Source: Bacillus sp. (in: firmicutes)
Lineage (GTDB): Bacteria > Bacillota > Bacilli > Bacillales > Bacillaceae
DNA length: 58,040 nucleotides
Direction: 5' to 3'
NCBI GenBank assembly: GCA_031180405.1
Contig: JAPSLU010000008.1
Span: forward strand, 1-58,040
The stretch's first letter is position 1, and every line of letters begins with the position of its first letter. Position numbers and translations under genes: made by a program. Of the stretch, positions 42,001 to 53,718 are shown one piece after another. The notes under the pieces were generated by a model that saw only the letters and a list, made by a program, of their open reading frames with translations, did no database searches and was not told where the DNA came from.

Positions 42001-42113
42001 GCGATGAGCTGAATTGTGTAAGTCGAATTACATGCCGAAAGGCTAAATGCACGATGTGGCGTGCAGTATTTCGCCTCAATACGCAAAAGACGTCTTTTAT
42101 AGACGTCTTTTTA
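42001..42113 (+). ncRNA. Candidate structured RNA with terminator, upstream of proC
   Basis: Four short hairpins occur in a row: TGTAA/TTACA (42017-42032), GCC-GAAA-GGC (42034-42043), TGCACG/CGTGCA (42048-42065) and GTATT/AATAC (42066-42082). A Rho-independent terminator follows (AAAGACGTC/GACGTCTTT, 42086-42113). A -10-like TATATT lies upstream at about 41991. It could be a small RNA or a riboswitch-like leader for proC, 90 bp downstream. No known family is recognised. Confidence 0.5.
42086..42113 (+). terminator. Terminator of the candidate RNA
   Basis: AAAGACGTC pairs with GACGTCTTT around TTTTATA, followed by TTTTTA. Confidence 0.85.
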
Positions 42114-44939: not shown

Positions 44940-45185
44940 ACCTATCAAAAGATAATTGAACCAAACGGACAGGATGGGTTTGAATTAAAAGAAAATAAAA
45001 AGCCCGCAACAAAAGAAGATATTTCGATCATTATAAAAGAAATTCAACAAATGAAAGAAATATTGGGTCTGGACTCGTTAAATTCAACTACAAAACGAAG
45101 CATTTCATCTGAAATAACCTTATTTACAGAGGTTGTAAAAATAAAAATAATCCTGTACCCCCTCATAAATTGCAATAAAAGATAA
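44940..45185 (+). pseudogene. Possible gene remnant
   Basis: An open stretch of about 80 codons reads ...GFELKENKKPATKEDISIII and on to KEIQQMKEILGLDSLNSTT, with helical coiled-coil-like composition, but has no plausible start and ribosome site. It may be the truncated end of a lost gene between DUF418 and the biosynthetic operon. The remaining 330 bp up to 45522 hold a promoter region only. Confidence 0.3.
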
Positions 45186-45347: not shown

Positions 45348-45385
45348 ACTAGTAACTAGTATAATGGTTACGCTTACAAACTAGT
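45348..45385 (+). promoter_or_regulatory. Putative promoter/operator of the biosynthetic operon
   Basis: A -10-like TATAAT (45360-45365) is preceded by two ACTAGT palindromes (45348-45353 and 45355-45360). A cre-like TGGTTACGCTTACA (45365-45378) and a third ACTAGT (45380-45385) follow it. No good -35 box is seen, so an activator may be needed. The message would have a leader of about 150 nt. Confidence 0.4.
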
Positions 45386-45521
45386 CTCTATCATCAAATA
45401 TTTTCATTTCCATTATTGTCTATCACTTTATGCTGTTCGCTACATAAGTTGTAAATGTACTCAGAAAATATGAGTGTGGTAGAAAGACCTAATTAAAAAT
45501 GATTTAAAGGAGGTGGAAGGG

Positions 45522-46088
45522 TTGGTAAATGCAAAAGGTGAATGGAAAAAAGAATTTGAAAAGGCGGTTCACTTACATCAACTAGCAATAAATGGAGATA
45601 AACAAGCAGCAAAGCAAGCTTATGATTTGTTGAAAAAAATAAGATTACAAACTGTTAATAATGCTCTTGTAGATGCCTATTTTGGTAGTTCATCTGCTCT
45701 GATTGCAAGAGATCATCCAGATTTAATGGAAAAAATGAACCTAGCAAAGAGAGGTCTAAAAGCTTTAGACAATGCAGTCAAGGCAGATCCTAATAATGTT
45801 GAAATTAGAATATTACGTGGAAATGTAGCGTATCGCCTTCCAGAAATGTATTTCAGAAGAACAAAAACAGCAATCGAAGACTTTCAATTTCTAGTTGACG
45901 GGTATGAAGGAAAAAAGAATAAGATTTCCAAAAACCAATATTGCGAGTTTTTACTAAATTTAGGTAATTCCTACCAAGTCATTGGAGAAAGTCAAAAAGC
46001 TGACACTACGTGGGATAAATTGCTAAAGATAAATAGCAGTAAGTTTAAAAAGCTTGTTGATGAGCTTAGAAAGAATGGAGGTGTATAG
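45522..46088 (+). CDS. Single-module TPR-like repeat protein
   Basis: The TTG at 45522 lies 6 nt after AAAGGAGGTGG and gives 188 residues. The whole protein is one helical module: QAAKQAYDLLKKI, then AYFGSSSALIARDHPDLMEK, a central LRGNVAYRLPEMYFRRTKTA, IEDFQFLVDGYEG, and a last helix pair LGNSYQVIGESQKADTTWDK. The same module occurs three times in the next gene. The helix-turn-helix spacing recalls TPR units, suggesting protein contacts. No enzyme motif, signal or membrane segment is present. It is first in the operon, 2 bp ahead of the next gene. The function is unknown; a scaffold or partner for the ligases is conceivable. Confidence 0.75.
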   Translation: MVNAKGEWKKEFEKAVHLHQLAINGDKQAAKQAYDLLKKIRLQTVNNALVDAYFGSSSALIARDHPDLMEKMNLAKRGLKALDNAVKADPNNVEIRILRGNVAYRLPEMYFRRTKTAIEDFQFLVDGYEGKKNKISKNQYCEFLLNLGNSYQVIGESQKADTTWDKLLKINSSKFKKLVDELRKNGGV

Positions 46089-46090
46089 AT

Positions 46091-48235
46091 TTGCAATTTA
46101 AAAAGAGAAATGAAAAATTATTAAAAAAATTAGCGGAGGGTAATCCGTATTTGTCTACTTTTAAAAGGGGAACTTTAGAGAATTTACCAATTACTAGATT
46201 AATCTTAAAGGAAGCAAATCATACTACTGATAGAAGCAAGATGTTAATGAAAAAAGTGGAAGCTGTACAAAATAACGCTAATAAATCAATAGAAGAAAGC
46301 AGCCTGAATTTTAAAAAAGCTGTTGAATCTCAAAAAGTTAGGAACAAAAAATCAAAAAAAGTATCAGTTCAAAAGGAGAGCAATCAACAAGTAGAAGAAG
46401 CAGCAAAGTATCCAAGAGTAGAAAATCTAGATTTTACTAAGCGTGAAAAGTCATCAACTAAAAATAATAGTAATAATGAACAATATCAATCAAGTATAAA
46501 GAAATCTGAAAACAAGACGAATAAAATAGTCGAGAATCAAACATCAAGTTCATCAAGTCTTACACCATTAGAAGATGCAATAAATAACCATGATGCTGGT
46601 ATAAAAGGAAATAAGCTCGCTGTAAAAAAGGCATATGCATCTTTAAAAGAGTTACATCAAAAGAACCCTAACGATCTTATGATAAAAGCCTATTATGGAA
46701 GTGCCACAACGTTACTCGCAAGGGACGCAAGCAGTGTTACTGATAAAATGAAATATGCACTTGAAGGACTAAAATATTTAGATGGAGTAGTAGATAAATC
46801 CCCCGATTTTATTCTAGGAAGATTTCTAAGAGGGAATGTAGCCTACCGATTACCAGAATTATATTTTCAACGTACGGCTACTGCTATAGAGGATTTTCGT
46901 TATCTTGTAGACGCATTTGAAGAAAACCGCTCAATTCTATCTGAACGTGATTATATTGAGGTGTTAAAAAATTTAGTCGAGGCTAGTAAACGTGTAAATC
47001 AATTAGACAATGCAAAAAACTATCAAGATAAATTAAAAGCATTAAAACAAAATGAAAAGCCAAGTCCAAATGACGGAACTCAATTAAACACTAACGGAGA
47101 AGTAGAATCAACAGGAGAAGGTCTTACTGATGAAGCAATAACCTATTACCAAAATGCTCTTAATGGAGGACCAGATGAAGTTAAAGAGGCATTGTCATTT
47201 TTTGAAGTATTTGTTTTAACTAATGAGGCAAAAGAAGTAGAGATGACCTACCTAGATCTACAGTCAATGCTTGGGAGAGATTCAATTAACACCTACGAGA
47301 TGTTCGGCTCAGCAATAAAGTCGATGAAAGCCATGGATGCCCTTATTAGTGAACATCCCTCTTTACATGAACTTCGCATAATAAGAGCGAGACATAGTTT
47401 ACGCTTACCTGAGATTTTCTTTAGAAGAGCGGCGATTGCCGTAAGTGATATTGAAATGCTGTTAAAAGATGCAGAATTCTCAAAGAAAGCGGAAAAGGAA
47501 ACTCTTAACCAACTACTTTTTGATTTAGGAAGAGCATACGAAAAATTAGATATGTTAGATGATGCCTTTAAAATATGGTACAAATTATTAAAACAAAGCC
47601 CCAATAAGCGACTAATTAGTAAAATACAAGAAAAAATTGAAATCCATTCATATAAAGAGATGGATTTAAAAATATTCTCATCATACCCAAAAGAAAAATT
47701 GTATAACAAAGGAAAAGAAATCCACTCCATTGGTGCAAAAGGAAGTCGATTAGCTGCGAAACAAAGTTTAGAGGTATGGGAGAAAGCAAAAAACACATTT
47801 CCGGACTGTGAGGTTGCCAATACCTATTATGCTGCTTCAGTAGCTTTAATGGGGAAATATGCTAGTGATCCTCAAGAAATGTTTGGAGAAACCATAAAGG
47901 GATTAAAGCTATTAAAATCATCAATAAAATCGGATAACCCCGAATTGAAGTATTTGCGAGGCTGTATTTATCAATGTTTACCTGAGGGATTCTTCCATAC
48001 AAGTGATAAAGCTGTGAAGGATTTTAAATCTGTAAAGGCAGCCTACGACAATAATCAAGACAATCCTCCAATCACAAAGGACCAATATATAAAACTACTT
48101 TATGATCTAGGTCATCTATTCAAAAAAACTAGTTTTGTAGACAAAGCGTTGAAAACTTGGAAAACTCTTGTAAAAGAGTATCCCCAATCAGAATATGCCC
48201 AAATGATAGCAAGGCAGGTAGGTGAAGTTGAGTGA
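46091..48235 (+). CDS. Three-module TPR-like repeat protein
   Basis: The TTG start follows GGAGGTGTAT. The 714-residue product has a basic, Ser/Lys/Asn-rich N-terminal part (about 1-155) that looks disordered, then three copies of the module of the preceding gene (about 156-315, 345-515, 530-710). The motif RGNVAYRLPELYFQRTATAI (first copy) becomes RARHSLRLPEIFFRRAAIAV (second) and RGCIYQCLPEGFFHTSDKAV (third), showing progressive divergence. No catalytic signature is seen. The stop overlaps the start of the ligase gene by 4 bp (GTGA), which argues for coupled translation and a shared task. I do not recognise a named family. Confidence 0.75.
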   Translation: MQFKKRNEKLLKKLAEGNPYLSTFKRGTLENLPITRLILKEANHTTDRSKMLMKKVEAVQNNANKSIEESSLNFKKAVESQKVRNKKSKKVSVQKESNQQVEEAAKYPRVENLDFTKREKSSTKNNSNNEQYQSSIKKSENKTNKIVENQTSSSSSLTPLEDAINNHDAGIKGNKLAVKKAYASLKELHQKNPNDLMIKAYYGSATTLLARDASSVTDKMKYALEGLKYLDGVVDKSPDFILGRFLRGNVAYRLPELYFQRTATAIEDFRYLVDAFEENRSILSERDYIEVLKNLVEASKRVNQLDNAKNYQDKLKALKQNEKPSPNDGTQLNTNGEVESTGEGLTDEAITYYQNALNGGPDEVKEALSFFEVFVLTNEAKEVEMTYLDLQSMLGRDSINTYEMFGSAIKSMKAMDALISEHPSLHELRIIRARHSLRLPEIFFRRAAIAVSDIEMLLKDAEFSKKAEKETLNQLLFDLGRAYEKLDMLDDAFKIWYKLLKQSPNKRLISKIQEKIEIHSYKEMDLKIFSSYPKEKLYNKGKEIHSIGAKGSRLAAKQSLEVWEKAKNTFPDCEVANTYYAASVALMGKYASDPQEMFGETIKGLKLLKSSIKSDNPELKYLRGCIYQCLPEGFFHTSDKAVKDFKSVKAAYDNNQDNPPITKDQYIKLLYDLGHLFKKTSFVDKALKTWKTLVKEYPQSEYAQMIARQVGEVE

Positions 48236-49566
48236 GCTCTTTATTTGAAAAAAAATTAAAAAAGGTTAGTATGCCACTAACGATAAAACGTTTTTTAGAT
48301 GGCGAAATTCATCCGGATAAAATGTCTCAAAAACAAATTGAGTCCTTTCATGTTGAATCGTTAAAGGAAATTGTAAAAAAGGCATACGAGAAAAATGAGT
48401 TTTATCGCCAAAAACTAGATGAAGCAGATGTAAAGCCCAATTCTATTAAACAAATCAGCGATTTAAGCAAACTTCCATTCTTAACAAAAGATGAATTACG
48501 TGGTAAACCATATATTCTTCTAACTTGTGACAAAAAAGATATTGCACTTGTGCAAGTGTCTACAGGTACAACAGGTGGAGAAGAAATATATATGATGTAC
48601 ACCTGGAATGATTACTATTTACATGATCTTGCTCCTAGATATCCAGAATTATTTGAAGTGGACCCAGGAGATGTATGTTTAAATGCACTTCCATATGAGA
48701 TGAGTGCTGCAGGCTTAGCTTTTCATAAAACGTTTATGGAGGGTTGTGAAGCAACCGTTATCCCTGCTGGAAAAGGCGGGGCATATTCAACCCCTAAGAA
48801 GACGTTAAAAATGATAAAGGATTTACAACCAAACGTAGTTATTACAACGCCTTCATGGGCGATGTTATTAGCTGAAGAAGCCGCTGAGCAGGAGTTTGAC
48901 TTGCAGAGCTTACAGTTAAAAAAACTATGGATCACTGGTGAAGGATGTTCACCTGCTTTTCGTCAAAGGTTAGAAAAACTTTGGGGAGCTACTGCAAACT
49001 TCTTTTATGGAAGTCTTGAGTGTGGAGTTCTGGGAATTGAATGTGACCATCATGATGGATATCACCTTGCCCAAGCTCATGCAATAGTGGAAATTGTTGA
49101 TCCAAAGACAGGGGAACCTCTAGACGAAGGAGAAATTGGAGAAATCGTAGTGACTAGTGCTCTTCGTTACGATACACCGATTCTACGTTTCCGTACAGGT
49201 GACCTTGGCTATATAGAGTCCGAGAGCTGCCCATGTGGTGTGACAATGCCAAAGTTCTATCTACGTGGAAGAGTCGTTGATCAAATCCGATACAATGGAA
49301 CATCTCTGTCCCCATTTTATTTAGAAGAATTTTTAATGCGTGAGCCTGAAATTGGAAATTGGTTTGAATTTGTTATAACTAGCGATGGGGATAACGAATC
49401 TATTCATGTACGTTGTGAATTAGCAGAAGGAATTGCAGCATCCGAACATTTAGCTGATTCTTTAGCAAGTAAACTTGAGTTTGCTTCAGGCATTCCGTTT
49501 GAGCTTGAGTTCGTTGATAAGCTTCCGAGGCCACAAGGAAAAACTGTTCGTGTTGTCTATGAATAG
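48232..49566 (+). CDS. Phenylacetate-CoA ligase-like acyl-activating enzyme 1
   Basis: The 444-residue ANL-superfamily enzyme has the phosphate loop STGTTGG (110-116), YGSLE (259-263) and RFRTGD (319-324). A Cys pair in ESCPCG (Cys333, Cys335) with Cys271 upstream resembles the zinc site of PaaK enzymes, and a C-terminal catalytic Lys lies in GKTVRV (Lys437). It should adenylate an aryl acid and pass it to CoA or a nucleophile. In this operon the likely substrate is 3-amino-4-hydroxybenzoate or a partner acid (inference). Start is GTG with GGTAGGTG upstream, overlapping the TPR gene. A second, distantly similar ligase lies two genes on. Confidence 0.88.
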   Translation: MSSLFEKKLKKVSMPLTIKRFLDGEIHPDKMSQKQIESFHVESLKEIVKKAYEKNEFYRQKLDEADVKPNSIKQISDLSKLPFLTKDELRGKPYILLTCDKKDIALVQVSTGTTGGEEIYMMYTWNDYYLHDLAPRYPELFEVDPGDVCLNALPYEMSAAGLAFHKTFMEGCEATVIPAGKGGAYSTPKKTLKMIKDLQPNVVITTPSWAMLLAEEAAEQEFDLQSLQLKKLWITGEGCSPAFRQRLEKLWGATANFFYGSLECGVLGIECDHHDGYHLAQAHAIVEIVDPKTGEPLDEGEIGEIVVTSALRYDTPILRFRTGDLGYIESESCPCGVTMPKFYLRGRVVDQIRYNGTSLSPFYLEEFLMREPEIGNWFEFVITSDGDNESIHVRCELAEGIAASEHLADSLASKLEFASGIPFELEFVDKLPRPQGKTVRVVYE

Positions 49567-49577
49567 GAGGTGAGAAG

Positions 49578-50333
49578 ATGATTATTGATGCCCATGCACA
49601 TCTTTCAAATACCGAATACGGAAACATGGAAATGTATTTGAAATTAATGAAAGAGGCGGGAATTAACAAGGTAGTAGCTGTTCCGGGTGCAATGCTAGAT
49701 GTGCGAAAAATGACCGAATATATTACAGGTCGAGCAAAACCAGATAATCCAGTTCCAGATAATCTTTATATTGAAAAAGCGTGTAAAGCTAACCAAAGTA
49801 TTCATGGGTTTATCTGTATTAATCCTCATGATAAAGATGTTTTATCACAATTAGAAAAAGGAAAAAAACAAGGGTTTAAAGGCTTAAAGCTGTCACCATT
49901 GTCACACCAGTTTTCCTTTGCATCTAAAGGGGTAACTGGGTTATCTGAATTATGTGGAAATTATGGGTTTCCTGTATATTCACACGTCGTATACAGTCCA
50001 GGAGCTTCAACAACAAAATTTATACAACTTGCAAAACAATTTCCAAAAACAAACTTTATTATTGGTCATATGGGATTTGGTCCTGCTGATCAGGAAGCAT
50101 TAGAAGCTGCAAGGGATTTGCCGAACTTTTATTTAGAAACCTCAACAGGTAATTTTCTTCACATTCAAGAAACAGTAAAGAGAATAGGTTCTTCTAAGGT
50201 GATTTTCGGGTCGGAATACCCTTTATCACACCCTGGTATTGAGCTTGAGAAAGTGCTCAAACTTCAACTTACTGATCGTGAACGAGAAGAAATTCTAAGC
50301 CAAAATATTAAACATTTACTTCAATTGAAATAG
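49578..50333 (+). CDS. Amidohydrolase-superfamily enzyme (candidate benzoxazole cyclase)
   Basis: The 251-residue TIM-barrel protein belongs to the amidohydrolase_2 (PF04909) type: HxH at 6 and 8 (DAHAHL), Lys104 in FKGLKLSP, His136 (YSHVVYS), His164 (IIGHMG) and an acidic residue at the last metal position. That residue is Glu213 (FGSEYP) where the family normally has Asp (FGSDxP). Between two acyl-activating enzymes and beside aminohydroxybenzoate enzymes, it matches the amidohydrolase that closes the oxazole ring in benzoxazole pathways such as nataxazole and, as I recall, closoxazole. That role is inference; a hydrolase or decarboxylase is the alternative. AGGAGGTGAG precedes the ATG. Confidence 0.82.
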   Translation: MIIDAHAHLSNTEYGNMEMYLKLMKEAGINKVVAVPGAMLDVRKMTEYITGRAKPDNPVPDNLYIEKACKANQSIHGFICINPHDKDVLSQLEKGKKQGFKGLKLSPLSHQFSFASKGVTGLSELCGNYGFPVYSHVVYSPGASTTKFIQLAKQFPKTNFIIGHMGFGPADQEALEAARDLPNFYLETSTGNFLHIQETVKRIGSSKVIFGSEYPLSHPGIELEKVLKLQLTDREREEILSQNIKHLLQLK

Positions 50334-50346
50334 AGGTGTGTTTTTG

Positions 50347-51600
50347 ATGAACACACATGAGATGATCATTGCCTTAAATGAAGTCCTAACTTATGCCAAA
50401 ACATCACCATATTACTCAAATCGTATCCAATTACCACCGCTTCATTCCCTTAATGATTTTAAAAAAATACCATTAACAACCAAAGATGATCTTAGAGAAC
50501 AATCACCATTCGGATTACTACCACATTCTTCTATGTCTTTGTCTCAATACCATGAATCTTCAGGTACAACTGGTACACCAGTTTCTGTTTGGTATTCCGA
50601 GTCTGACCTAAATGAAATAGCCAAATCCATTGGCTGTTGCGGAGTGAATATTGGTGAAGATGATCGTGTTCTCATCAGATTCCCATACGCACTTTCAACG
50701 ATTTCGCATTTCCTGCACCGATCTGTTCAGCTGCAAGGTGGATGTGTGATCCCAGCTGATAGTCGCACGACAGTTACTCCGATGCCAAAAGTGATTGATC
50801 TAATGAAAAAGTTAAATATTACAGTTCTTGCATGTATTTCATTACAGGCTATTATGCTGGCAGAAATGGCAGAAATGCTTGGTCTGGAACCCAAAAAAGA
50901 TTTCCCTTTTTTAAGAGCTATTTGCACTGCTGGTGAACCGTTAACACCATACCGCCGGCAGTTGATTGAAAAAATCTGGGGTGTACCTGTATTTGACAAC
51001 TATGGCATGACAGAGGTAGGTACAGCAATGGTTGATTGTTCCTCCTCACATCTGCATATTTTCGAAGAACACTTTCATGTTGAGATTCTGGAGGATGACT
51101 TACAAACTGATGTGAAAAATGGTGATACAGGCAACCTGGTTATCACCACTCTACGCAAAAGAGCAACACCTATGATTCGGTATGTAACAGGTGACATTGT
51201 TCAAGAAATTAAGAGTCCATGTACATGTGGCAAGGGTCGTTCATTTGTGATTAGAGGTAGAAAGGAAAATATTTTGATGATTGAGTCTACTTCATTTGAC
51301 TTATATGAGTTAGAGAAAATTATCGCTCCTTTACCGGCAAGGCGATTTTGGTCTGCCGGGAAGTTCAACAATTCTTTGTATCTATTTATTGAGAAAGAGT
51401 CTACTACTGATACGGTCTCAAAGAATTATATTGATGAACTAAAGAAAATGTATGGGGTTAACATTTCAATTATTCTCTTAAATAAAGGTTCCTTGTACGA
51501 CAGAGCAGACGAAGTAGCCTTTGGAATAAAAGCGAAGCCACGTTATTTTTTGACTGAACAAGAAACAGCAAATTTATTAAATCAAATAAAAACTTTTTAG
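50347..51600 (+). CDS. Phenylacetate-CoA ligase-like acyl-activating enzyme 2
   Basis: The ATG at 50347 follows GAGGTG at 7-nt spacing (417 residues); an in-frame GTG upstream overlaps that site. Motifs are SSGTTGTP (71-78), YGMTE (219-223), RYVTGD (278-283) and the Cys pair PCTCG (292/294). The C-terminal domain is shortened and ends with Lys395/Lys397 in GIKAKPRYF as the possible catalytic Lys. It is only distantly similar to ligase 1, so the two probably activate different acids, or one loads while the other couples. It stands 13 bp after the amidohydrolase gene. Confidence 0.88.
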   Translation: MNTHEMIIALNEVLTYAKTSPYYSNRIQLPPLHSLNDFKKIPLTTKDDLREQSPFGLLPHSSMSLSQYHESSGTTGTPVSVWYSESDLNEIAKSIGCCGVNIGEDDRVLIRFPYALSTISHFLHRSVQLQGGCVIPADSRTTVTPMPKVIDLMKKLNITVLACISLQAIMLAEMAEMLGLEPKKDFPFLRAICTAGEPLTPYRRQLIEKIWGVPVFDNYGMTEVGTAMVDCSSSHLHIFEEHFHVEILEDDLQTDVKNGDTGNLVITTLRKRATPMIRYVTGDIVQEIKSPCTCGKGRSFVIRGRKENILMIESTSFDLYELEKIIAPLPARRFWSAGKFNNSLYLFIEKESTTDTVSKNYIDELKKMYGVNISIILLNKGSLYDRADEVAFGIKAKPRYFLTEQETANLLNQIKTF

Positions 51601-51621
51601 ATTGGAAGGAGCAATTTCAAA

Positions 51622-52728
51622 ATGCAACAAAAAGCTAGGCAAGTATGGTATGACGGTAGGGGCGTTTCAGTAGAGAATATGGATGTATGGGAGCTTATTA
51701 ACCACTCTCCAATTGACAAAGTGCTTGTATCTCTACAACAACGTCAAGATGGATACTTTCCGCAAAAAATGATGTTTATTACTGAGGTTGAAAGTAGTGA
51801 ACAATTAGAGGAAGTACCAACTGGAGATGTGATTTTCTCAGATAAAGAAGAGGTATTAGCGGAAGCGAAAAAAAGAGGCTATAAAACTTGTATTTTTTAC
51901 TCTGTCGATAATAGAGAAATGCTTGAGCGTTGTTCAAGAGAAGCAAGCTATTATGACTTCGCAGCAGTAGACTTTGATTTACCAACAAATATTCCTTTAG
52001 AGTTAATCATTGCTCGCTTAGAGGAAAGCAATACTGTTCTTTTAAGAGCAGTCAATACTGCGATTGATACGGAGATCGCGTACGGGACACTTGAAAAGGG
52101 TAGCGATGGTGTTTTATTTGCTACGACAAATGTAAATGAAGTGAAGCGATTAACGGAATTTATGTCAAAACAATCCTTACCTAAACTTGAATTGCATCCA
52201 ATGATAGTGACAGATGTTGTTCATGCTGGTATGGGCGTCCGTGCTTGTATTGATACAACTGGTATTATGACACAGGATGAAGGGATGATCATCGGTTCCA
52301 CATCTGGTGGAGGGGTATTCGTTTGCTCTGAGACACACTACCTTCCTTATATGAACCTAAGGCCCTTCCGTGTAAACGCAGGTGCTGTTCACTCATATGT
52401 GTGGCAACCTGAGGATGCTGCTGAATATTTAAGTGATTTAAAAGCAGGAGATAAGGTGCTGTGCGTCAATACAAAAGGTGAGACGCGAGTGTTAACAGTT
52501 GGTCGTATTAAAACTGAGGTACGTCCAATGCTTCTCATTAAAGGAAAAGTAGGGGAACGTGAACTAAATGTAATCGTTCAAGATGACTGGCACATCCGTA
52601 TTATGAGTGCTGACGGTAAACCGCGTAATGCTTCTACCATTCAACCTGGTGATGAGTTATTATCATATATCTGTGAGCCAGGTCGACACGTTGGTGTAAA
52701 AGTAAGTGAAACAATTATTGAAAGATAG
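51622..52728 (+). CDS. 3-dehydroquinate synthase II (AroB'/GriH type)
   Basis: The 368-residue protein has the family blocks HAGMGVRACIDTTGIMTQDE, GMIIGSTSGGGVFVCSE and the conserved RPFRVNAGAVHSYV (about 252-265), followed by a SH3-like C-terminal half beginning LKAGDKVL. In methanogens AroB' (MJ1249) converts the aldolase product to 3-dehydroquinate with NAD. In Streptomyces griseus the homologue GriH makes 3-amino-4-hydroxybenzoate. A Bacillus has its own bacterial AroB for aromatic amino acids, so a GriH-like role is favoured. AAGGAGC precedes the ATG. It lies 21 bp after ligase 2 and 18 bp before its aldolase partner. Confidence 0.9.
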   Translation: MQQKARQVWYDGRGVSVENMDVWELINHSPIDKVLVSLQQRQDGYFPQKMMFITEVESSEQLEEVPTGDVIFSDKEEVLAEAKKRGYKTCIFYSVDNREMLERCSREASYYDFAAVDFDLPTNIPLELIIARLEESNTVLLRAVNTAIDTEIAYGTLEKGSDGVLFATTNVNEVKRLTEFMSKQSLPKLELHPMIVTDVVHAGMGVRACIDTTGIMTQDEGMIIGSTSGGGVFVCSETHYLPYMNLRPFRVNAGAVHSYVWQPEDAAEYLSDLKAGDKVLCVNTKGETRVLTVGRIKTEVRPMLLIKGKVGERELNVIVQDDWHIRIMSADGKPRNASTIQPGDELLSYICEPGRHVGVKVSETIIER

Positions 52729-52746
52729 AACATTGGAGGAAAAAGT

Positions 52747-53508
52747 ATGTCTGGAAAAGAAATTCGTCTAAAGAAGCTTTATCACCATTCTGACAAGTTA
52801 CTAATTGTACCAATGGATCACGGGATCACAATTGGTCCTGTTACAGGATTAACTGACATTAATAAAACAGTCGAATCTGTATTTGATGGAGGTGCAGATG
52901 CGGTTGTTGTTCATAAGGGGCTTGTTCGATATTTAACTGATGCAATTGGGTCCAATAAGGGTGAGCTTATTATCCATTTATCAGCATCAACTGCTTTAGC
53001 TCCTGAATCTCAATCAATGCGAAAAGAACTCGTTTCTTCTGTTGAGCATTCCATTCGATTGGGTGCGACAGCCATTTCAACACATGTTAACCTTGGCTCT
53101 CAATTTGAAGCAGAACAAATGAAGGATGTTGGTCTTATTGCTGAAGAATGTGACAAATGGGGATTGCCCCTTTTGGCCATGATGTATGTTCGAGATGGAT
53201 CAAGAGTACATGAGTTTGATCCTGAACGAATTCGTCATGCTGCACGTGTAGCTGAAGAATTAGGAGCAGATATTGTCAAAGTAAACTATAGTGGATCACC
53301 GGAAACATTTAAACATGTTGTTGCTGGCGTGAAAATCCCTGTGTTAATCGCTGGAGGAGAAAGATTATCGTCAAAAGTTGATTTAATGACGATGATTGAC
53401 GATGCAGTAAGCGCTGGTGCAAACGGAATATCAATCGGTCGAAATATTTTCCAGGATGAAGATCCAAAGAAATTATGTGAAAATATTCGATCCATTTTAG
53501 ATCAATAA
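52747..53508 (+). CDS. ADH-synthase/aldolase (AroA'/GriI type)
   Basis: The 253-residue TIM-barrel aldolase resembles 2-amino-3,7-dideoxy-D-threo-hept-6-ulosonate synthase (MJ0400) and GriI. It has PMDHGITIGP (Asp24, His25), Tyr147 in MMYVRDG as proton donor, and the Schiff-base Lys178 in DIVKVNYSG, followed by IAGGERL and GISIGRNIF for phosphate binding. It would condense L-aspartate-4-semialdehyde with a ketose phosphate (DHAP for GriI), giving the C7 amino sugar acid that the neighbour cyclises. GGAGG precedes the ATG. The order cyclase then aldolase places both at the end of the operon. Confidence 0.9.
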   Translation: MSGKEIRLKKLYHHSDKLLIVPMDHGITIGPVTGLTDINKTVESVFDGGADAVVVHKGLVRYLTDAIGSNKGELIIHLSASTALAPESQSMRKELVSSVEHSIRLGATAISTHVNLGSQFEAEQMKDVGLIAEECDKWGLPLLAMMYVRDGSRVHEFDPERIRHAARVAEELGADIVKVNYSGSPETFKHVVAGVKIPVLIAGGERLSSKVDLMTMIDDAVSAGANGISIGRNIFQDEDPKKLCENIRSILDQ

Positions 53509-53526
53509 TCAAGAGGTGATGAAAAA

Positions 53527-53718
53527 ATGGATAAACAAAAATTCACAAATGAAGTAATTGGGAATATGTCCAAAAGAATAGCCGGTTTAAAAAAACAAGG
53601 GGCAACTGGTGAGCAAATTCAAGGTGCCGTATTTGAAATGTTGCGTGAACTGGGAATTAAAATTCCATTAGATAAATTACCAGAGAACTTTAGAAGAGGG
53701 AATAAGGGAAAGAAATAG
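53527..53718 (+). CDS. Small protein at the end of the biosynthetic operon, 63 aa
   Basis: AGAGGTG lies before the ATG, 18 bp after the aldolase stop, so it belongs to the operon. The product starts MDKQKFTNEVIGNMSKRIAG and is helical and basic, with GATGEQIQGAVFEMLRELGI in the middle and a charged KK tail. It is too short and polar for a transporter. It could be an accessory subunit, an adaptor for the ligases or a regulator. I do not recognise it. Confidence 0.65.
   Translation: MDKQKFTNEVIGNMSKRIAGLKKQGATGEQIQGAVFEMLRELGIKIPLDKLPENFRRGNKGKK

Follow-up and report, generated by a model that had tools for sequence, protein, structure and literature searches.

The question raised by this locus is what a Metabacillus-like bacterium does with enzymes that are otherwise known from an antibiotic pathway. 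The locus lies in a stretch of 58,040 nucleotides (hereafter the window: contig JAPSLU010000008.1, positions 1 to 58,040 of the forward strand, assembly GCA_031180405.1) from a Metabacillus-like draft genome of 438 contigs (G000), whose closest named relatives by aldolase are M. halosaccharovorans, M. niabensis and Bacillus sp. J37. At positions 45522-53718, eight open reading frames (ORFs), all on the + strand, are densely packed with intergenic gaps of 2, -4, 11, 4, 21, 18 and 18 bp, confirming the close-set, co-directional arrangement described in an earlier sequence-only reading. All five closoxazole-type enzyme kinds are encoded together here, as judged from the ORF list and domain searches, along with two tetratricopeptide repeat (TPR) proteins and a 63-residue protein, p63. 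Closoxazole-type chemistry is well supported for this operon by sequence comparison, which also supports the enzyme families, the TPR partnership and a conserved promoter-like block upstream. On balance we lean towards a closoxazole-type pathway for 3-amino-4-hydroxybenzoate (AHBA) that has been remodelled for use inside the sporulating cell. The features, in gene order, are:

45382..45466, + strand: conserved upstream block, putative sporulation-sigma-like promoter (15 distinct upstream sequences aligned)
45522..46088, + strand: tprS, one-module TPR protein, 188 aa, with a TTG start behind AAAGGAGGTGG (domain search; AlphaFold2)
46091..48235, + strand: tprL, three-module TPR protein, 714 aa (domain search; modules by profile)
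48232..49566, + strand: lig1, PaaK-like adenylate-forming ligase, 444 aa, probably ClxC/PfxA-like, judging from its position among the five
49578..50333, + strand: amidohydrolase, 251 aa, taken as ClxD/PfxB-like from its position among the five (Pfam; alignment)
50338..51600, + strand: lig2, ClxA/PfxC-like aryl ligase, 420 aa (structure-chain match, blastp, alignment)
51622..52728, + strand: aroB', AroB'-type AHBA synthase (GriH/ClxB-like), 368 aa (Pfam/NCBIfam; tree)
52747..53508, + strand: aroA', AroA'-type aldolase of the ADH synthase family, ClxE-like role, 253 aa (Pfam/NCBIfam; tree)
53527..53718, + strand: p63, small protein, last gene of the operon (family profile)

The families that the sequence-only reading had assigned to the five enzymes were confirmed by Pfam and NCBIfam domain searches, and its comparison with closoxazole also held: the enzyme kinds are those of the five-gene closoxazole set described in PMC12118335, a paper whose main text does not contain 'TPR', 'tetratrico' or 'spor'. 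For dimer, benzoxazole and closoxazole A, that paper gives m/z values of 289.08, 271.07 and 406.10, respectively. Compared by published description, the clx cluster of Clostridium cavendishii and the pfx cluster of Pyxidicoccus fallax share with the operon an aldolase, an AHBA synthase, two AMP ligases and a condensing amidohydrolase, whereas the operon adds two TPR genes, p63 and a putative sigma-K-like promoter, and is without an exporter. We regard its enzymes as a further member of the known closoxazole-type kind; the TPR partner, the promoter-like block, p63 and the exporter contrast are new.

AroA' is a DeoC/ADH synthase family member (TIGR01949, 309.3 bits against a cut-off of 299.45), and AroB' belongs to the DHQS (3-dehydroquinate synthase II) family, scoring above the Pfam cut-off and below every NCBIfam cut-off. 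These are the AHBA-forming aldolase and cyclase families of the grixazone, bagremycin and ferroverdin systems (GriI/GriH, BagB/BagC), but the operon proteins differ from the BagB/BagC type in falling far below its models' cut-offs (223 bits for BagB_FevI and 225 bits for BagC_FevH, against 500 and 750). The sequence-only reading had placed both proteins with GriI/GriH and AroA'/AroB'. Our trees, built without a characterised GriI, GriH or ClxB sequence, bear on this in part. In the cyclase tree (83 rows, midpoint root), a 42-row clade with support 0.973 joins 38 rows of operon-type clusters and L058 to three closoxazole-like rows (L115-L117) and lies apart from relatives in Spirochaetes, Desulfobacterota, Methanosphaera and others that are presumed to be shikimate-type; a few of the clade's loci have no TPR gene in reach. 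The aldolases of operon-type clusters lie closer to the presumed shikimate-type group than closoxazole-like aldolases do.

Both ligases carry AMP-binding/PaaK-like domains. The second, lig2, matched chain 9s3l of the Protein Data Bank (E 1.4e-67; by blastp, 39% identity over 327 residues), which we take to be ClxA because M198, Y219, T222, N226, D281 and H301 match the numbers published in PMC12519233, although the code is not printed in the main text of that paper. The identity is near the 40.2% 'similarity' given for PfxC and ClxA in PMC12118335. Aligned to ClxA, lig2 keeps the zinc cysteines and the AMP-site tyrosine and aspartate: C231, C290, C292, Y219 and D281 are identical in 37/37 lig2 rows, and T222 in 31/37, window included (the 37 rows leave out 20 loci from a repeated contig or a near-identical species). 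By eye, the C-terminal KP-x-Y lysine tail is also kept in the window. The nataxazole system (NatL2, and also AjiA1) likewise has a PaaK-like ligase that carries a structural zinc and a C-terminal lysine, but its building block is 3-hydroxyanthranilate. By elimination, lig1 would stand in place of ClxC/PfxA; it lies 125-145 kb away from the other cluster genes in four relatives (G001, G004, G012 and G015).

The amidohydrolase has an Amidohydro_2 domain (Pfam) and keeps four metal-site histidines, H6, H8, H136 and H164, which we equate by sequence with H75, H77, H253 and H290 of NatAM, whose metal site also includes Asp345 (PMC7204872). It differs from NatAM in length (251 residues against about 490) and in having Glu213 in place of the canonical metal-site aspartate, a substitution found in 38/38 rows (32 distinct), closoxazole-like L115-L117 included. 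Glutamate is able to bind zinc, so a NatAM-like mechanism may still apply to this predicted condensing amidohydrolase. A plasmid search for its relatives returned 97 records, all below 60% identity and, among the 30 listed, at most 32%.

The gene set is not a chance assembly, since it is carried by much of the genus and keeps its order outside it. Within the genus, tprS, lig1 (at least 70%) and the amidohydrolase (at least 76%) are present in 14/21 genomes, and the order tprL-lig1-amidohydrolase-lig2-aroB'-aroA' is repeated in Bacillus suaedae, Rossellomorea, Brevibacillus, Filobacillus, Syntrophomonas and several metagenome-assembled genomes (MAGs). Some genes appear to be broken in single genomes (the TPR genes of G007 in L107 and L120, aroA' in L032/L129, lig2 in L055/L175). 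One cluster, L042, shares its layout with Peptococcaceae L052 and comes from a MAG whose Actinobacteria label may be mistaken.

The sequence-only reading had seen the two repeat proteins and p63 as bystanders, and here it did not hold, as both turned out to be conserved partners of the enzymes. The repeat proteins it had noticed are indeed such, and are now identified as TPR by Pfam/NCBIfam, tprS only at scores under the Pfam cut-offs. Profile counting gave 172 modules in 87 TPR proteins, of which 40 have one module, 9 have two and 38 have three, with Arg99, Pro107, Phe111 and Asp120 kept in 98-99% of modules. The AlphaFold2 model of tprS is all-helical (mean pLDDT 92.5), and a search of the TPR alignment profile against solved structures gave only weak matches to two designed proteins.

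Two surveys tie these proteins to the enzymes. Among 80 loci found by their aldolase, 28 have the amidohydrolase; TPR genes accompany it in 24, and in the other 4 the amidohydrolase sits at a contig edge. Across 299 evenly drawn Bacillota genomes, the TPR profile matched 26 at E<=1e-10 and 18 at E<=1e-40, a line set after the list was seen, with G345 on it (1.0e-40) and G205, which has no core enzyme nearby, just past it (3.7e-40). All 18 strong-TPR genomes were amidohydrolase-positive; in 17 of them the DNA examined includes cluster genes, and G251 has TPR and amidohydrolase on one contig (C148). Around the matches of the 8 weaker TPR genomes, no core enzyme was found in the DNA examined. The amidohydrolase profile matched 22/398 genomes, of which 19 are among the 299 shared with the TPR screen (genomes common to both draws being matched by their numbers), and the overlap of 18 has a hypergeometric p of 6e-28, uncorrected for kinship. 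In G252, the genome with amidohydrolase and no strong TPR match, the cluster is closoxazole-like and includes an ABC-2 exporter and a divergent TPR protein of its own, and the clusters of G381, G411 and G443 likewise carry TPR. These comparisons strongly support TPR proteins as probable components of closoxazole-type chemistry.

The partnership extends beyond AHBA. In G014 and G024 the DNA examined has TPR genes and ligases but no amidohydrolase, aroA' or aroB', and there a 587-aa ClxA-type ligase is fused to TPR repeats (L123 3971-5734 and L124 12506-14269, respectively). All four closoxazole-like clusters examined (L115, L116, L117 and L192) also have a TPR protein, within a racemase-like protein in L116 and L117. 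Because both kinds of cluster carry it, TPR goes with the aryl ligases and not with AHBA or with cyclisation. The G014 cluster also encodes a DAHP synthase and a weakly chorismate-lyase-like protein (below the Pfam cut-off), and the fusion clusters may make 4-hydroxybenzoate oligoesters. Separately, 7/60 relatives, all with the main cluster too, have a second, unlinked TPR pair (loci L118-L120 and L126-L128); a sigma-K-like site lies upstream in 5/6 of those examined, twice about 250 bp before the start, and in L118 an Orn/Lys/Arg decarboxylase gene adjoins the pair.

No Pfam or NCBIfam model matched p63. A profile seeded with five Metabacillus rows and L045, six small proteins in all, and run against 72 candidate ORFs placed relatives after aroA' in 14/14 Metabacillus genomes with the cluster and also in B. 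suaedae, Rossellomorea, Brevibacillus and the L042 and L052 MAGs. By this profile, the p63 family closes the predicted operon in Bacilli and some Clostridia. A second copy of 46-52 aa follows in 9/14 Metabacillus, with none in the window, and no match was found among the candidate ORFs at Thermincola-type and several other loci. Eight loci of the Thermincola/Syntrophomonadaceae type (L034, L035, L036, L039, L040, L041, L043 and L046) have two additional small families, of 160-185 aa in 8/8 and of 94-137 aa in 5/8 (Lys/Asp-rich in L041), with a sigma-K-like site upstream at some loci; a Pfam search with one representative per family gave no match.

A promoter-like block upstream of tprS had escaped the sequence-only reading. 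Alignment of 15 distinct regions there (14 Metabacillus and B. suaedae, window included) left 45/437 columns invariant: none before 45382, 8 in 45382-45396, 29 in 45407-45466 and 8 in the ribosome-binding site. The block core reads CTATCAC-16-CATAA..TG and contains AC-N16-CATANNNT, which is present in the window and in the regions of 14 distinct relatives. In the window the site consists of AC at 45425-45426, a 16 bp spacer and CATAAGTT at 45443-45450, invariant in all 15 sequences. The sigma-K consensus has AC at -35, a 15-17 bp spacer and CATANNNTA at -10, with a strict form ending in TA. The block resembles sigma-K/sigma-E sporulation promoters, if only putatively. According to PMC517825, sigma-E and sigma-K have a common -10 and a -35 that differs by one base (C or T), and the two blocks of sigma-K are 14-16 apart.

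Several counts bear on this resemblance. The loose pattern AC-N15-17-CATANNNT precedes 32/94 core genes and 43/462 others (p 8e-9), and the strict form 16/94 and 23/462 (p 2e-4), in rows that are non-independent; the counts drop 20 loci repeating one contig or near-identical species and keep weak-TPR and closoxazole-like loci, and the 462 include a few cluster-associated, pattern-bearing genes (for instance the L034 small families and, in L123, the gene preceding the TPR pair). Scored by hand over 23 lineage units, a site stands at the first gene in 8 (P 8e-4): three separate Metabacillus units, B. suaedae, Brevibacillus, Syntrophomonas, L042/L052 and L054. The strict TA-ending form is present in Syntrophomonas, Brevibacillus and the second TPR loci. 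In three relatives, G012, G015 and G004, the same CTATCAC...CATA block precedes an unlinked lig1-lig2 operon (3/3 examined), compared with 0/418 background regions; with a block before both and absent from the background, the two unlinked operons appear to be under one control. Among control promoters in five Metabacillus genomes, cotD had a site in 5/5. From this conserved block, it is likely that Metabacillus transcribes the operon in the mother cell.

In the scheme that we infer for the product structure, the role of TPR, the timing in sporulation and the location in the spore, the AroA'/AroB' pair would make AHBA, and lig2 would adenylate one AHBA and couple it to another through an ester or amide bond. 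Benzoxazole closure would fall to the amidohydrolase, and attachment of a further aryl unit to lig1. The TPR proteins, with one and three modules, and p63 may tie together the ligases or the aryl chain, such that short-lived intermediates or oligomers would be channelled or immobilised. In Metabacillus and some other spore-formers, a sigma-K/sigma-E-type promoter would have the product made late in the mother cell, and this product, with no exporter in the operon, would be bound for the spore as pigment, ultraviolet shield or cross-link. That an AHBA-derived product goes to the spore is a bold step. Its fullest form, in which endospore-formers lay a benzoxazole- or aramid-like AHBA polymer or oligomer from the mother cell onto the spore under sigma-K/E control, with TPR and a small helical protein as scaffold, is tentative and, in our view, rather doubtful.

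A number of observations weigh against use in the sporulating cell. The window's CATAAGTTG is without the final TA of the strict sigma-K form, and 15/23 lineage units have no site at their first gene (16/24 with negative L048), among them Thermincola-type, Rossellomorea and, for tprS, Filobacillus (positive at aroB'). The closoxazole-like L115 has the loose pattern before aroB', although the first core gene of the four closoxazole-like clusters has no sigma-K-like site. No site preceded cotX at 0/16 loci in the five Metabacillus genomes (16 of 26 CotX matches examined, some loci being two repeats of one ORF). Genome-wide, CTATCAC-N14-17-CATA occurred at 12 sites, against 7 in a reversed control, 9 of them within ORFs and one the window's own, with no other before a recognised coat gene. 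Spo0A is present in 26/26 TPR genomes, a weak test (p 0.016) given 257/299 overall. The proposed scaffold role is based on linkage and one fusion, and TPR alone is no pointer to spores. In the window lig2 has threonine at the AHBA-contacting Asn226 of ClxA, a position that reads T 20, N 10, A 4, P 2 and S 1 across the 37 rows. Asn226 is described in PMC12519233 as a mutable specificity residue, and it is not known to be class-defining.

The same facts lend some weight to a plain antibiotic cluster of closoxazole type. Its product would diffuse or use an unlinked exporter, TPR would be an accessory, and a stationary-phase promoter would merely look like one of sigma-K. Its five enzymes match an antibiotic pathway, exporter-bearing closoxazole-like clusters have divergent TPR too, and most lineage units are without the site. 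That such clusters carry TPR, together with the missing strict -10 ending, slightly lowered our confidence in the sporulation reading and slightly raised it in this one. The exporters themselves point the other way. An ABC-2 exporter pair is present in 4/4 closoxazole-like clusters examined, whereas none of the eight operon genes has a transporter domain (Pfam), which favours a spore destination; and in the two genomes that hold both cluster types, G009 (L112/L116) and G013 (L113/L117), exporter genes occur only with the closoxazole-like one. The promoter-like block, kept across Metabacillus and before unlinked ligase operons, likewise counts against an ordinary antibiotic cluster, which we consider a possible but minority explanation.

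Amide- or ester-linked AHBA oligomers, edited or trimmed by an amidohydrolase that forms no benzoxazole, are an unlikely end product, though two substitutions would suit them. One is the uniform change of the metal-site aspartate to glutamate; the other affects Lys140 of ClxA, which is serine in the window and lysine in 0/37 lig2 rows, and the ClxA K140A variant is reported to yield longer oligoamides (PMC12519233). Against oligomers, the glutamate is common to the closoxazole-like L115-L117, and the histidines that match NatAM are kept.

AHBA is the precursor of grixazone, and spore-formers have laccase-type coat enzymes, so AHBA oxidation to a pigment or a redox- or metal-binding o-aminophenol (a grixazone-like phenoxazinone) can be imagined; we think it improbable, as none of the eight genes has an oxidase domain and two ligases and an amidohydrolase would be left unexplained. 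An alternative shikimate entry through AroA'/AroB' is hardly credible and was rejected, since, despite an aldolase above the ADH synthase cut-off and nearer the presumed shikimate-type group than closoxazole-like aldolases, the cyclase groups with closoxazole-like clusters, ligases and amidohydrolase adjoin, and a canonical DHQ synthase encoded elsewhere in the genome makes the pair unneeded for chorismate.

Outside the operon, a decayed DUF421 (YetF-like) remnant lies at 44955-45140 (+), with 62% identity over its C-terminal part; an intact gene of this kind precedes tprS in many relatives. At 42001-42109 (+) is a match to the BsrF small RNA (98.7 bits), the window's sole Rfam match at gathering scores.

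In the literature, no description was found of a spore-coat small-molecule system derived from antibiotic-pathway enzymes. Searches for AHBA with Metabacillus found nothing; with sporulation terms, none of the matches listed concerned AHBA, and with spore and Clostridia terms none of those listed was relevant. AHBA, Bacillus, gene cluster and amidohydrolase together gave only closoxazole and caboxamycin work as relevant among the matches listed, and tetratricopeptide, benzoxazole and gene cluster only a Streptomyces genome paper. None of the matches listed on the sigma-K consensus gave its letters.

If the sporulation reading is right, a benzoxazole pathway known as a source of antibiotics would serve another purpose among spore-formers ranging from Metabacillus to Syntrophomonas, and there would be a testable candidate for an unknown spore aromatic. 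TPR proteins would be named as a protein partner of closoxazole-type ligases, one of which, PfxC, has been suggested to lose an unstable ester to a shunt amide when assayed in vitro (PMC12118335), and natural Lys140-free relatives of ClxA would be on offer for making AHBA oligomers.

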